Positions 56,706 through 63,164 of a stretch of 64,000 nt of DNA are shown piece by piece. The stretch comes from Lacipirellulaceae bacterium (lineage in GTDB: Bacteria; Planctomycetota; Planctomycetia; Pirellulales; Lacipirellulaceae), in the NCBI GenBank assembly GCA_040218535.1, contig JAVJRG010000008.1:230320-294319 (forward strand), written 5' to 3'. The notes under the pieces are model-generated. The model did not search any database. It had not been told where the DNA came from and saw only the letters and a program-made list of their open reading frames with translations. The first letter of the stretch is position 1. Every line of letters begins with the position of its first letter. A program made the position numbers and the translations under genes.

Positions 56706-57815
56706 CTACTCAGCCGGCGACGTGATCTTTGCCGCTTCCAGTTCCGGCCGTCGCGGTGCCAGTTTTCCGCTTCGCAAGTCGAACAGCAGGTCTTGCACGG
56801 TTTGCACATCGAGGCCGTACGACTCGGTTCTTCCCGAGCGAGCAATGTTCAGGCCCACCATCTCGCCGTCGAGATTCACCAACGGACCGCCGCACTGATT
56901 TGGGGCGAGTACCGTGTCGTGCTGAAAGGCGTTGGGGAAGCCAAACCGCCGCGTGCTCAACTTGCCGCCCAGCGAGTTCTGGAACTGGCTGCGGCTTTGT
57001 CTTACGCCGGAGAACCGGCCCGACAGTGTAGCCTCAACTTTCAGCGTTTCCGACTTGCGCTGCAGAGTGAGCGTGATTCGGTCGCCCGGGTTGAATTCTC
57101 TGACAGTGTCAATCAACTCGACACGTGTTCGCGTCGGTTGGCCGTTGATATGTGTTATGAGATCATCCTGCTTGACGCCGGCACGCTCGGCACCACTCTC
57201 AGGGAAGACGTAAACCACCAGCGGTCGATTCGCTTCGTCCAATTGGACGCCCAGAACGCCGGGTTGATGAGGGACTTCACGCCCCGGCACGCTAACGACG
57301 CCGACCGCTTCAGGATCGCGCGACATGCCGACCGTTGCGACAAACGAACCGACGGACGGTTTCTTTTCGGCGAAGCGAATTTCCTTGAGATTACTCGCTT
57401 CGATCTTCAGGAGCGCCAGGTCATGTTCACCACTGACGCCCACGATGTCAGCATCGTAGGTCTTACCGTTCTTCAAACGGCACGTAATGTCGCCACTCAG
57501 GGGACTTGCTTTGCTGAGTATCCAACCGTCGGCCCCGACAACGCAACCCAGAGCCACTTGCTTCCCATCAGAACGAACCCGTGCCGTGGATTCAGAAGCC
57601 CGCTTCACGACGTCACGAAATGCTGCCCTCACATGCGGACCGTCAGTCAACCGCCAACGCGGCACGAGCAACTGATCGAGCCCAAACGGCACGTCGCGTT
57701 CTTGCTCAATCGGAACAAAGCCCTGATCTGCCTCCTGCGCATGAGTCGCAGAGAGGCAAACACTCATGACACACACAGCAATTAAGAGTCGAGTAGTAAC
57801 AACTTGAGAATTCAC
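56706..57815 (-). CDS. HtrA-like protein with PDZ inserted and catalytic residues lost
   Basis: A 369-aa secreted protein (signal to AQE). It has the S1C fold pieces in an unusual order. The first part (about 65-180) has GWILSKASPL, where the catalytic His (expected in TNNHVV-like sequence) is Ser104, and HDLALLKI with Asp132. A PDZ-like domain follows (about 185-265: GVLGVQLDEANRPLV, GAERAGVKQDDLITHING). Only then comes the serine-loop half, LAPNQCGGPLVNLDGEMVGLN, where Ser is Cys308. So two triad residues are replaced and PDZ lies inside the fold. Probably a non-peptidase scaffold or chaperone. Confidence 0.75.
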   Translation of the reverse strand: MNSQVVTTRLLIAVCVMSVCLSATHAQEADQGFVPIEQERDVPFGLDQLLVPRWRLTDGPHVRAAFRDVVKRASESTARVRSDGKQVALGCVVGADGWILSKASPLSGDITCRLKNGKTYDADIVGVSGEHDLALLKIEASNLKEIRFAEKKPSVGSFVATVGMSRDPEAVGVVSVPGREVPHQPGVLGVQLDEANRPLVVYVFPESGAERAGVKQDDLITHINGQPTRTRVELIDTVREFNPGDRITLTLQRKSETLKVEATLSGRFSGVRQSRSQFQNSLGGKLSTRRFGFPNAFQHDTVLAPNQCGGPLVNLDGEMVGLNIARSGRTESYGLDVQTVQDLLFDLRSGKLAPRRPELEAAKITSPAE

Positions 57816-57944: not shown

Positions 57945-59060
57945 TCAATTCTTCCGCAACTCACCCGCAGTGATGACTTTCACCTCAACCGTTTTCTCAA
58001 CGCCGTCACGTTCATACGTTAGTTTCACTTTCTCTCCAGGCTCTTGAAAGAAAATGGTTCGCGATAATTCCTCGAACGAATCGATCGGTCGACCGTCAAT
58101 GGCCACGATCACGTCCCCATTCTTCACACCCGCGTTGGCTGCCGGCAGACCGGCAATCGCTCTCGTAATGACACAGCGTCCGTCGATCGTTCTTCCAGAA
58201 ACGCCAATCACTGGACGATCAGCGACCATTTCTTCGTTGATCTGTCCGCCCCAGACTTCACCGGCAAGTAGTCGATCCCAGGAGCTTTCAAATCCGGTGG
58301 TTGCTACATGAAAGTTATGTGTCACCCGTGGGCCAATGCTACTATGAATACCAACTAACTCGCCACGCATGTTGAACAGCGGTCCACCCGAGTCGCCTCC
58401 AACCAGCGTGCAGTCGGTGCAAACGACTTCCTCTTCGCGGAAGAGAACACGACCTAGGCGAACCGGAGGCGCCCGGCCTTCTACAAGTCCGCCCGGCTGA
58501 CCTGTTGTCACAACCCATTCTCCCGGAACCAGTTTCGTACCCTTGGCGATCGGCGTGTAAGGAAGATCACTCGGTGGGTTGTCCATCTGCACCATGCCTG
58601 CGTCGATGTCGTGATTCGCTCCGAGACTCTTGCCGGTAAAACGGCGACCATCGGGAAGAATAATGTTCACTTTGCGACTGGAGTCTCCGATGACATGCCC
58701 GGCAGTCAGGATGAGACCTTCAGGATTGACAATCACGCCGCTGCCCGCAGAACGCCCCAACTGCAGGGCGACGGTGGCAGGAAGGCTGTGCTTGACGACC
58801 CGTTGTAGCTGTCCCTCGATCCGGCGGAGGTCTGCCACGTTACGAGGATAACGCGACTTGAGAGTCTTCTCGGTTTCCGTTGATACGTCCAACGCTGCAT
58901 CGGAAAACTGAGCCTGGGAGCTTGCAGCGGCCAGCAGAACTGTCAGTAGAGATGCAGTGGCAATCAGTTGTGGGTAGCTAGTGTTTCTAATACCTGAACT
59001 CCTAAAACCTGTTCCTCGCGATGCCACTATTTTCGCATTATCACCCCACAACGGCAACAA
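57945..59060 (-). CDS. S1C-family trypsin-like protease with C-terminal PDZ (HtrA-like)
   Basis: A 371-aa protein; the N-terminal ~50 residues contain a hydrophobic export signal (LIATASLLTVLLAAASSQAQ). The triad is complete: His122 (LTAGHVI), Asp153 (HDIDAGM) and Ser224 (GGDSGGPLFN). A PDZ domain follows in the normal place (about 270-360: IGVSGRTIDGRCVITR, GVKNGDVIVAIDGRPIDSFEEL). It probably handles misfolded or surface proteins. The inactive-looking paralogue is its downstream neighbour on the same strand. Confidence 0.88.
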   Translation of the reverse strand: MLPLWGDNAKIVASRGTGFRSSGIRNTSYPQLIATASLLTVLLAAASSQAQFSDAALDVSTETEKTLKSRYPRNVADLRRIEGQLQRVVKHSLPATVALQLGRSAGSGVIVNPEGLILTAGHVIGDSSRKVNIILPDGRRFTGKSLGANHDIDAGMVQMDNPPSDLPYTPIAKGTKLVPGEWVVTTGQPGGLVEGRAPPVRLGRVLFREEEVVCTDCTLVGGDSGGPLFNMRGELVGIHSSIGPRVTHNFHVATTGFESSWDRLLAGEVWGGQINEEMVADRPVIGVSGRTIDGRCVITRAIAGLPAANAGVKNGDVIVAIDGRPIDSFEELSRTIFFQEPGEKVKLTYERDGVEKTVEVKVITAGELRKN

Positions 59061-59367: not shown

Positions 59368-59970
59368 ATGAGCCTCGATCAACTAACCAAACGCCAACGC
59401 GAAGTTTACGAGTTCGTTCGCACCAAGATCCAAGGCCGCGGCTACGGGCCCACCGTGCGGGAGATCGGCGAGCAGTTCGGCATCAACTCACCCAACGGCG
59501 TGATGTGCCATCTCAAAGCGCTGGAAAAGAAGGGACTCATCACGCGCGAGCCAAACATGTCACGGGCGATTCAACTCACCGACGCGGGGCTCGCGGATCA
59601 AGGTATCCCGCTGGTCGGTTCAATTGCCGCGGGCAGTTTGACCGAAGCCATCGAAGACGCCGACCTGCTCGACTTCGAGGCGATGTTCCCCGCTAAGAAA
59701 AATCACTTTGCCTTACGCGTGAAAGGCGACTCAATGATCGAAGCGGCCATCGCCGACGGCGACATCGTTATCTGCAAAAAAGCACGCACCGCCCACAAGC
59801 ACGACATTGTGGTCGCAATGACCGACGAAGGCGAAGCGACGCTCAAGTATTGGATCCCCGAAGGTAACCGGATTCGTTTGCAGCCGGCGAACAGCTCGAT
59901 GGAGCCGATCTACGTGCGTGACGTGCAGGTGTTGGGGATTGTGACCGGGGTGGTGCGGAAGGTGGGGTAA
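59368..59970 (+). CDS. lexA: SOS repressor LexA
   Basis: A 200-aa LexA of normal length. The winged helix is at the N-terminus (LTKRQREVYEFV, PTVREIGEQFGI, GVMCHLKALEKKGLI). The self-cleavage site is Ala88-Gly89 (SIAAGS), with Ser122 (GDSMIEA) and Lys160 (EATLKYW) as the catalytic pair. It represses DNA-repair genes until RecA filaments trigger cleavage. recA and imuA/B genes are not in the window. Confidence 0.95.
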   Translation: MSLDQLTKRQREVYEFVRTKIQGRGYGPTVREIGEQFGINSPNGVMCHLKALEKKGLITREPNMSRAIQLTDAGLADQGIPLVGSIAAGSLTEAIEDADLLDFEAMFPAKKNHFALRVKGDSMIEAAIADGDIVICKKARTAHKHDIVVAMTDEGEATLKYWIPEGNRIRLQPANSSMEPIYVRDVQVLGIVTGVVRKVG

Positions 59971-59971
59971 T

Positions 59972-60092
59972 GTAGCCATATCGCTCCGCGATATGAATTG
60001 CGGCGATTGCGTAACATTAACCATCGCATAGCAACTACAACGATCTGACTGGTTTCATTGATCGCTTTCATCTCGCGGAGCGAGATGGCTAC
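59972..60092. repeat. Palindromes between lexA and the response regulator
   Basis: GTAGCCATATCGCTCCGCGATATG at 59972-59995 and CATCTCGCGGAGCGAGATGG with CTAC at 60069-60092 are two hairpins of the same kind, inverted, in the convergent gap. Confidence 0.7.
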
Positions 60093-61489
60093 TACGCCGA
60101 CTTCTCTAAACTCGTCGCTTGGTTGAGCTTATTGTAGAGCGTCTTCAAGCTCACGCCCAACTGTTCGGCGGCTTTCGGTTTGCTGCCGTCGTTGCGTTCG
60201 AGCGCCTCGTGGATGGCGAGCATTTCCAACTCGCGGAGGGTCATCACGCCGGGGCTTAGTTTTGCAGCGCCGGTTAGTTGGCGACTGTCGAAGCGTTGGG
60301 GGAGGTGTTCGGCGCGGATGGGGCCAGAGTCGCACAAGATCGTGGCGTGTTCGACGACGTTGGCCAATTCCCTGACGTTACCGGGCCAGACGTGACCAAG
60401 TAAGGCCTGAATCGCATCGTCGGCAATCTCACCGTCACTGCCCTGCCCCGCACCTCGATGTCTCGCGAGCAAATGCTTTGCTAAAGCCGGAACATCTTCC
60501 AGACGCTCTCGCAATGGCGGCAGATGAATCTCAAACGAATTGATGCGGTACATCAAGTCCTCGCGGAAGTCACCCGCTTCGACCATCTCGGGCAAGTTGC
60601 GATGGGTTGCACAAACAACGCGAACGTCAACGGTGATCGGTTTGTTCTCACCAACACGGCGAATTTCACGGCTTTCCAAGACGCGTAGTAGCTTTGCCTG
60701 CATGCTTTTGGGCAGCTCGCCGATTTCATCGAGGAATATCGTTCCGCCAGCGGCGACTTCAAACAGGCCGGTGCGATGATCGTCAGCTCCAGTAAAGGCG
60801 CCTTTGCGGTGACCGAAAAGCTCGCTTTCGATGAGCGTTTCAGGCAAAGCACCGCAATTGATGGCAACGAATGGTGCCTCGGCGCGCGGGCTTTGGTTGT
60901 GAACAGCGCGGGCGACAAGTTCTTTGCCGGTACCCGTCTCGCCGAGAACGAGAACAGTGGCGTCGCTGGGCGCAACTTTCTCGATAAGGATCTGAACCTT
61001 CATCATCGCTGGCGTCTTGCCGATGAGTGTCGAGGAGCCTTCGAGTCGTTTCACTTCGTGCTGTAACGCACGACATTTCTTATCGAGCGCGAGCTTTTCG
61101 CTAACGCGATCAAGCAACGCTTTGATTTCAACCAAACGACACGGCTTTGTTAGATAGTCGAACGCACCGTGGCGCAACGCGGCGATGGCGCTTTCGAGGG
61201 TACTCTTGCCGGTGAGGATCACCGCTTCGGTTTCTGGTGAGTTCTCTTTGCACTTGGCGATCACCCCGATGCCGTCGAGTCCTGGCATGTCGAGATCGAC
61301 AATGATGCAGTCGTAGGTGTTCTTCTCCAGCGCAGCAACCGCGGTCGTGCCGTCAGGGCAGACGGTAACTGTGTGGCCCAAGCGTGGCAGCTCTTGCTTC
61401 ATGAGCTCTTGCAGCGACTGCTCGTCGTCCGCGAAGAGTAAGCTCAAACCTTGCCCGTTGTTTTTATTGTTAGGCTGCTTGGCGGCCAT
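60092..61489 (-). CDS. Sigma54-dependent response regulator (NtrC family)
   Basis: A 465-aa protein with three domains. Receiver: phospho-acceptor Asp65 in IIVDLDMPGLDG, with the DDE pocket at 21-23. Central AAA+: Walker A GETGTGKELVARAVH and sigma54-contact loop GAFTGADD. C-terminal Fis-type HTH: EALERNDGSKPKAAEQLGVSLKTLYNKL. It activates sigma54 promoters when phosphorylated. Its start overlaps the kinase gene by 20 bases, so the two are translationally coupled. Confidence 0.94.
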   Translation of the reverse strand: MAAKQPNNKNNGQGLSLLFADDEQSLQELMKQELPRLGHTVTVCPDGTTAVAALEKNTYDCIIVDLDMPGLDGIGVIAKCKENSPETEAVILTGKSTLESAIAALRHGAFDYLTKPCRLVEIKALLDRVSEKLALDKKCRALQHEVKRLEGSSTLIGKTPAMMKVQILIEKVAPSDATVLVLGETGTGKELVARAVHNQSPRAEAPFVAINCGALPETLIESELFGHRKGAFTGADDHRTGLFEVAAGGTIFLDEIGELPKSMQAKLLRVLESREIRRVGENKPITVDVRVVCATHRNLPEMVEAGDFREDLMYRINSFEIHLPPLRERLEDVPALAKHLLARHRGAGQGSDGEIADDAIQALLGHVWPGNVRELANVVEHATILCDSGPIRAEHLPQRFDSRQLTGAAKLSPGVMTLRELEMLAIHEALERNDGSKPKAAEQLGVSLKTLYNKLNQATSLEKSA

Positions 61490-63164
61490 GGCCGTTCTCC
61501 TTGCTCGATTGATGAGCCGGTAAAGTCACTACGAAACGTGACCCGCGATCGGGTCCTTCACTGGCGGCTTCGATGGTGCCGCCGTGTTCTTCAACGATGC
61601 GATAAGTAATTGAGAGGCCGAGGCCGGTGCCCTGCCCTGTTCTTCTCCGCGTGAAGAATGGTTCGAACAGATGCTTACGGACTTCCTCGGTCATGCCGCA
61701 GCCGTTGTCTTCGACAATGATCTGTGTACCAGATCCCTTGCGTTGCACCATCACGCGGACGGTTCCGCCTGCGTCGACACTTTCGAGCGCGTTGGTGACA
61801 AGGTTGAGCGCGACTTGCTTGATTTCTTGCGCATTGATTTCCGCGATGACCGGCGGACCGTCAACGAGCTCAAGGTTTTTATCCTGATACTTGCCTAGGT
61901 GCTGCACCATTTCGATCACGCTGGCAGTCAGTTCGCGAAGGTCCGCGCCGTGATACTGCGAGTCACCCATGCGGGCGAAGTCGAGAAGTTTTTCGGTGAT
62001 TTGTTTACAGCGGAACGCTTCCCGCTGGATCATCTGCAAGTAGTTACGGGCGACTTGAACGTCTTCTGAGTGGGACTCATCAACACTCTCAAGCAAGTCA
62101 TCTAGTCGGCCTTCGAGCGATTCGCTACAGAGGGCAATCGAAGCCAAAGGGTTGTTGATCTCGTGCGAAACCCCGGCGGCCAAGAAGCCAACGCTGGCGA
62201 GCTGTTCACTGCGGACGACTTGGTTAGTGCGTTGGCGAACCTGATCATCAAGGTCTTCTTTGATCTCGCGGAAACGCGAAGTCATGTGATTCATCGAGGC
62301 GGCAAGCTCACCCATCTCGTCTTCGGTAGTGAGCTGGATCGTGTGATCGAACTGACCTGCTGCGACCTTGCGAGATCCGCTGACGAGTTGTCCGAAAGGC
62401 TTGGCAAACGACTGATAGAAGACTCGGAAGAATAATCCGAGTAGCCCAATCGCCAACACCGCGTTCACCCAGGCAATCACGATTGCCGTGCGATAGCGGG
62501 CTCGCACGTCGTTCACTAGGACGGCGAAACGGCGATGCAAGTGGCTGGGGAGTTCAACAACGAGCGAAGAAAGTTGATCCACCTCGTCGCGAAGTTTACC
62601 GATTTGTAGCTCGTCGAGCAGCCAGTCTTCCTTGAGTTCCTCGTCAAGATCGTTACCACTGAGGCGCTGAATCACTTCGTCGATACGTGCCAATGTTTCG
62701 CGTTCGTGACGATCGTCACCGAGGCGCGTTTCCGTGAATTGGCTATTACGATCGAGTTGGCGGCGATAGCGAGCTAACGATTCGGTCAACAATTCAAACT
62801 GATTGCGATACTGCTCACGCAGCCACTGGGCGTCCCAGGGGCAGTCGATGGCGTCTTTGATTTGTTCGGCGAGAACTTCGGCTTCTTCTTCATCAGGCAG
62901 AGAATACTCGTCGAGCAACGTGGCCACACCGCCCGGGAGTTCAAGCCGTTCCTTCGCTTGGCTAAGCGTAATGCGCAAATCACCAACGTGTTGGCGGACT
63001 TGGCTGGCCAGCGGCAACTCAGCCGAACGGGCGCGAATACTCCGCACCAGACCGCGGTAGGAGTACAGTCCGTAATACGCGCTGCCGAACAACGAGAGCA
63101 CAGTCACGAGCAAGAGCGCGAGACCGAGTTTCAGCTTCGTGCGAATGGGCCAATGCGAGGGCAC
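61470..63164 (-). CDS. Sensor histidine kinase, partner of the sigma54 regulator
   Basis: A 564-aa membrane kinase starting at GTG with GGAGGTCG just before it. A helix near residues 12-32, a long periplasmic sensor region (about 35-230, mostly helical and charged), a second helix (VNAVLAIGLLGLFFRVFYQSF) and a HAMP segment (KVAAGQFDHTIQL) follow. HisKA has the phospho-His in GVSHEINNPLASIAL; HATPase has DNGCGM and GTGLGLSITY. The signal is unknown. The regulator lies directly downstream. Confidence 0.93.
   Translation of the reverse strand: MPSHWPIRTKLKLGLALLLVTVLSLFGSAYYGLYSYRGLVRSIRARSAELPLASQVRQHVGDLRITLSQAKERLELPGGVATLLDEYSLPDEEEAEVLAEQIKDAIDCPWDAQWLREQYRNQFELLTESLARYRRQLDRNSQFTETRLGDDRHERETLARIDEVIQRLSGNDLDEELKEDWLLDELQIGKLRDEVDQLSSLVVELPSHLHRRFAVLVNDVRARYRTAIVIAWVNAVLAIGLLGLFFRVFYQSFAKPFGQLVSGSRKVAAGQFDHTIQLTTEDEMGELAASMNHMTSRFREIKEDLDDQVRQRTNQVVRSEQLASVGFLAAGVSHEINNPLASIALCSESLEGRLDDLLESVDESHSEDVQVARNYLQMIQREAFRCKQITEKLLDFARMGDSQYHGADLRELTASVIEMVQHLGKYQDKNLELVDGPPVIAEINAQEIKQVALNLVTNALESVDAGGTVRVMVQRKGSGTQIIVEDNGCGMTEEVRKHLFEPFFTRRRTGQGTGLGLSITYRIVEEHGGTIEAASEGPDRGSRFVVTLPAHQSSKENGHGRQAA

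Follow-up and report, generated by a model that had tools for sequence, protein, structure and literature searches.

What role is left to a protein that has the fold of an HtrA protease, has lost catalytic residues, and carries its PDZ domain inside the protease domain? The question is raised by gene A, found at positions 56706–57815 of the window, the 64,000 nt stretch of the genome of a Lacipirellulaceae bacterium that was analyzed. The gene lies on the minus strand, as do all features of A and B described below, begins with a GTG codon according to the ORF listing, and specifies a protein of 369 aa, which was characterized by Pfam searches, AF2 modelling and fold comparison. As read from the sequence, residues 1–27 (57735–57815), ending in LSATHAQ, are likely to be a signal peptide.

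Trypsin and PDZ families were the only Pfam families matched in A. Trypsin_2 covers residues 90–322 in a single stretch, above its cut-off, and PDZ_2 falls inside it at residues 186–264 (57024–57260); both were also matched in all 33 members of alignment A2 (33/33). In NCBIfam, A scores far below the thresholds of the HtrA families (degP_htrA_DO, DegS and HhoA), reaching 95.9 bits at best where 416.2 are required. The first part of the trypsin-like fold, residues 60–180 (57276–57638; Pfam, alignment and AF2), comprises the N-terminal barrel and the first strands of the C-terminal barrel, and the second part, residues 285–345 (56781–56963; alignment, AF2 and fold comparison), holds the nucleophile loop and the C-terminal helix. 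When 79 canonical HtrA protease domains, taken from other contigs, were aligned with A by MAFFT, the PDZ domain of A fell wholly within a gap, and the AF2 model likewise shows it as an insertion, in loop L3. This model was built from A and 61 relatives (62 rows) and has a mean pLDDT of 83.7 and a pTM of 0.74; canonical HtrAs dominate the AF2 alignment and bias the model towards the geometry of HtrA, and A was modelled alone. An earlier model from two sequences was unusable (pLDDT 44). Residues 16–308 of the present model superpose on an HtrA protease domain alone with a Z-score of 26.2 and an rmsd of 1.9 Å over 180 aligned residues, and the top structural match is M. tuberculosis HtrA (Z 26.2). 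A profile of the A family matched solved HtrAs in separate pieces, which in the two alignments shown have the conventional chain order of N-part, C-part and PDZ. It is confirmed, then, that the HtrA/trypsin fold of A is complete and that a PDZ domain interrupts it. The preliminary description had placed a PDZ domain between the protease halves and proposed fold prediction as a check; the arrangement holds, the PDZ assignment stands through PDZ_2, and the HtrA protease fold was recovered.

The same MAFFT alignment locates the catalytic positions. Ser104 (codon 57504–57506) occupies a column that is His in 78/79 canonical domains, Asp132 (57420–57422) one that is Asp in 79/79, and Cys308 (56892–56894) one that is Ser in 79/79, exactly as had been read from the sequence beforehand. 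Judged by the features that define HtrA (S1C), the two-barrel trypsin-like fold is present in A, the His-Asp-Ser triad is absent (Ser104/Asp132/Cys308), and in place of one or two C-terminal PDZ domains there is one within the protease domain. Because two defining features fail, A is classed as an inactive homologue and is not filed as an HtrA peptidase.

Within the same order, 100 of 196 genomes contain a match to A (E ≤ 1e-10), and within the phylum 82 of 392 do (E ≤ 1e-20), the latter set being a draw from a larger group; about 11 of the 82 span the PDZ domain or the N-barrel only and were left uncounted. Viral contigs scanned for A with alignment A2 contained no relative, and the plasmids scanned gave one weak partial match. 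Exact peptide patterns run against genome contigs retrieved one relative (Bythopirellula) and one Clostridia HtrA; members beyond the phylum are possible. Residue counts were taken over 114 A domains. The His position is Ser in 103, Thr in 7, Asp in 4 and His in none (0/114), and loss of the His is a trait of the whole family; Asp132 is kept in 112/114. The Cys308 position is more variable (C in 99, M in 5, I in 3, V in 2, Q in 2, L and T in one each, and one gap), with 11 changes between Cys and not-Cys on the A tree when the gapped row is also counted. This Cys is common yet replaceable, mostly by residues unable to act as a nucleophile. Between A and the copy in a member of the same genus, pN is 0.14 and pS 0.76, with synonymous sites saturated, and A is under strong purifying selection, at a rate close to those of gene B and a ProB-like neighbor. 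In four of the B/A proteins (L160, L161, L162 and L165; 688–1143 aa, fused, with L162 overlapping), the A part seems to hold at least two PDZ repeats within the protease fold.

Directly upstream of A, 129 bases away and in the same orientation, lies gene B (57945–59060), which begins with a TTG codon. The preliminary description took it to be adjacent and active, and this is borne out by the ORF, Pfam and alignment: the triad H122/D153/S224 is intact, a PDZ domain occupies the C-terminal residues 283–362 (57975–58214; Pfam), and the triad is preserved across the B family (H122 in 101/104, D153 in 102/104, S224 in 103/104), all of which fits an HtrA-type protease. The motif around Asp223 is GDSGG; HtrAs usually have GNSGG. 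Following the Asp of the strand that precedes the nucleophile loop is Cys217 (58410–58412), a Cys in 73/104 members. A disulfide between Cys308 of A and Cys217 of B was considered and rejected, as the two positions do not covary (66/25/7/6, Fisher p 0.20). Elsewhere in the same genome there is a group of adjacent trypsin-like genes (G000:C5:1686756-1690599; L003, L172, L177 and L180), divergent from both A and B; in at least one of them the PDZ domain follows the protease. Many IMG/VR contigs labelled viral (L211, L306, L271, L240, L283 and others) also code for HtrA-type proteases that have a PDZ-like tail and keep the GNSGG motif intact, and these may be either phage genes or host carry-over.

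In HtrA proteases, activation passes from the PDZ domain to loop L3 and on to a neighboring subunit. This loop differs between A and B. Measured between the 'GIVS' Gly and the 'QTD' Asp, the L3 stretch has a median of 22 residues in canonical HtrAs (5–95%: 18–25), is 13 residues long in B with little variation (Gly203 to Asp216, 58413–58454, by alignment), and reaches 129 residues in A because the PDZ domain lies within it. The PDZ domain of A directly follows Arg179 (57279–57281), which by its order within the loop is equivalent to the sensor Arg of DegP (R187) and DegS (R178). In DegS, according to a review, Arg178 of L3 touches loop LD' of the neighboring subunit and relays the PDZ signal, and Ser183, Arg187 and Gln200 of DegP belong to the matching cluster (PMC11642142). 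Their counterparts in A, as assigned by alignment and by counting within what is a variable loop, are Ser175 (kept in 92/114), Arg179 (90/114) and Gln298 (84/114); the last of these is encoded with His299 at 56919–56924 and corresponds to DegP Q200 and DegS Q191. The activation-cluster residues are not kept in B, where both the positions within L3 and that of the Gln are variable.

The two genes are associated well beyond the window. In a first set of 50 separate A genes, B was directly upstream on the same strand in 47, with a spacing of −283 to +168 bases and several pairs overlapping by 4 bases. Where the two are unlinked, each A-positive genome tested (8/8) carries B elsewhere, at 332–414 bits, and a B match above 157 bits was found in 0/16 A-negative genomes tested. 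B and A are joined in one ORF at 41 loci (L139, a separate B, is excluded from these), and the label fused or separate changes 11 times on the A tree, at least three of the changes being forced by well supported branches; this is a quick tree with many weak branches. B has its own PDZ domain in 64/66 separate copies versus 18/41 fusions in which one was detected, counts to which no p-value is attached because the rows share ancestry. Five chains have three trypsin-like domains (L084, L090, L091, L164 and L166), always in the order dead, active (H-D-S), dead A-type. Since HtrAs work as trimers, these chains may be read as single-chain mixed trimers. The A part of L090 and L091 has apparently lost its PDZ domain.

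In the window, the neighbors of the pair are genes for LexA, a ProB-like kinase, a sigma-54 response regulator and a histidine kinase. Within 59368–63164, lexA is divergent from B, with the sigma-54 response regulator and histidine kinase genes nearby. The LexA, ProB-like and two-component genes accompany the pair only within its own family (including L037, L041, L042, L047 and L049), and B-A is the sole neighborhood conserved in all lineages. The unit is accordingly A plus B, and an assignment of function from the surrounding genes was discarded. Taken together, the genetic evidence makes it well supported that A and B act together, and the occurrence of the pair in other planctomycetes, proposed at the outset as a check, extends across the phylum as a conserved B-to-A arrangement. 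A and B each form one clade (SH-aLRT 99), and a clade uniting the two is not rejected (p-AU 0.73), so that the duplication suggested in the preliminary description is plausible, but it would be ancient, and the joint clade it implies is allowed rather than established. For the second half of that suggestion, conversion to a substrate-binding or regulatory partner, there is strong support from the gene pair, the fusions, the unlinked co-occurrence, and the near restriction of PDZ-less B to fusions.

The explanation we favor, with a probability of about 0.6, is that A and B make up a two-component envelope protease, in which B cuts and A, the dead HtrA-type subunit, senses or recruits. The nested PDZ domain in L3 of A would recognize peptide ends or substrates, and the binding event would be passed to a neighboring B subunit in a mixed oligomer along the route PDZ to L3 to LD' known from DegS and DegP; if there is no such relay, A would at least recruit substrate to B. 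In either case, B would do the cutting. We infer that A acts on B in trans by an allosteric mechanism that would activate B, that the two form a physical complex with the stoichiometry of a mixed trimer, that the PDZ domain binds peptides, and that there is export to the envelope. The PDZ domain of A would not be the sole sensor in the separate form, because there B keeps its own. A broader version, to which we give somewhat less than even odds, is that a hetero-oligomeric HtrA exists phylum-wide, its dead subunit with PDZ in L3 switching an active subunit with a short L3, and that the dead-active-dead chains show the assembly to be a mixed trimer in which one site is active.

The main rival dispenses with allostery: A would only tether substrate or act as a chaperone, handing misfolded or tagged proteins to B. 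It draws on the same evidence for association (gene pair, fusions and unlinked co-occurrence), and the conservation of Gly189 and Asp218 in the PDZ domain (113/114 each) would suit it equally, as would a dead groove that could still bind peptides. Tethering leaves unexplained, however, why the PDZ domain sits exactly in the sensor loop, why A has kept the Arg and Gln of the activation cluster, and why L3 of B is shortened, and we regard it as unlikely, if still worth weighing. A far less probable alternative is that A shares no more than a transcript with B and has been repurposed for an unrelated role, for example metal or redox binding by the Cys, His and Lys that are conserved in it. Conservation of His299 (104/114), Lys102 (111/114), Arg326 (105/114) and Arg329 (106/114) along with Cys308 is in keeping with this, and there is a precedent in MamO, a dead HtrA-type partner of the active MamE, which binds transition metals (PMC4794232). 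Against it, the one-chain fusions, the unlinked co-occurrence and the absence of the B PDZ domain from fusions point to joint action with B, and parts of the family do without Cys308. Least probable of all is that A works as a cysteine peptidase whose catalytic group has been rearranged, such as Cys308 with His299 or Lys102, an alternative raised in the preliminary description and now disfavored for the family as a whole: Cys can work in a trypsin-like fold, as in 3C-like proteases, and Cys308, His299, Lys102 and Asp132 are all common, but the usual His is missing from all 114 members, in 14 of them the Cys has given way to M, I, V, Q, L or T, His299 stays in 12/13 Cys-less rows with a readable B partner and so does not behave as part of a dyad, and from its place nine residues before the Cys, on the strand into the S1 region, it would not be expected to reach.

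If the two-component reading with a sensing or recruiting A is true, the pair would be of interest beyond this locus. In homo-oligomeric HtrAs, sensing and cutting are not cleanly separable; in A and B, evolution seems to have split the roles, giving the sensor with a built-in PDZ domain to A, and the active site with a short L3 to B. The fused and three-domain forms are natural single-chain constructs. Together they would offer a ready system for testing trans-allostery in HtrA proteases, and a role would be provided for a protein pair found in many Planctomycetota.

The open-licence literature searched gave no description of a dead HtrA with a nested PDZ domain. A survey of PDZ proteins records many in planctomycetes, and a search of its text gave no passage on a nested arrangement (PMC6411480). 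Among known systems, DegS, DegP and DegQ (HtrA, MEROPS S1C) share with A the protease fold, the PDZ type and the positions of the activation-cluster Arg and Gln, but they are homo-oligomers with an intact triad and a C-terminal PDZ domain, whereas A has its PDZ domain in L3 and a dead triad. Plant Deg5 and Deg8 resemble A and B in that they are a pair of HtrA paralogues sharing a compartment, and Deg5 is without a PDZ domain; unlike A and B, both keep the catalytic triad and the conventional domain order, and each has been crystallized alone (PMC3640471). The closest analogue is MamE/MamO of magnetotactic bacteria (PMC4794232). MamO retains His and Asp, with Thr in place of Ser, where A has Ser104/Asp132/Cys308; its TauE-like transporter domain is required to activate MamE, and from its description it has no nested PDZ domain; and contact between MamE and MamO was not detected, while B and A frequently share a chain. 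What the two systems share is the pairing of a dead HtrA-type protein with an active HtrA-type protease, and for MamE and MamO working together has been described: the triad of MamO is dispensable, yet MamO is needed for MamE-dependent proteolysis (PMC4794232).
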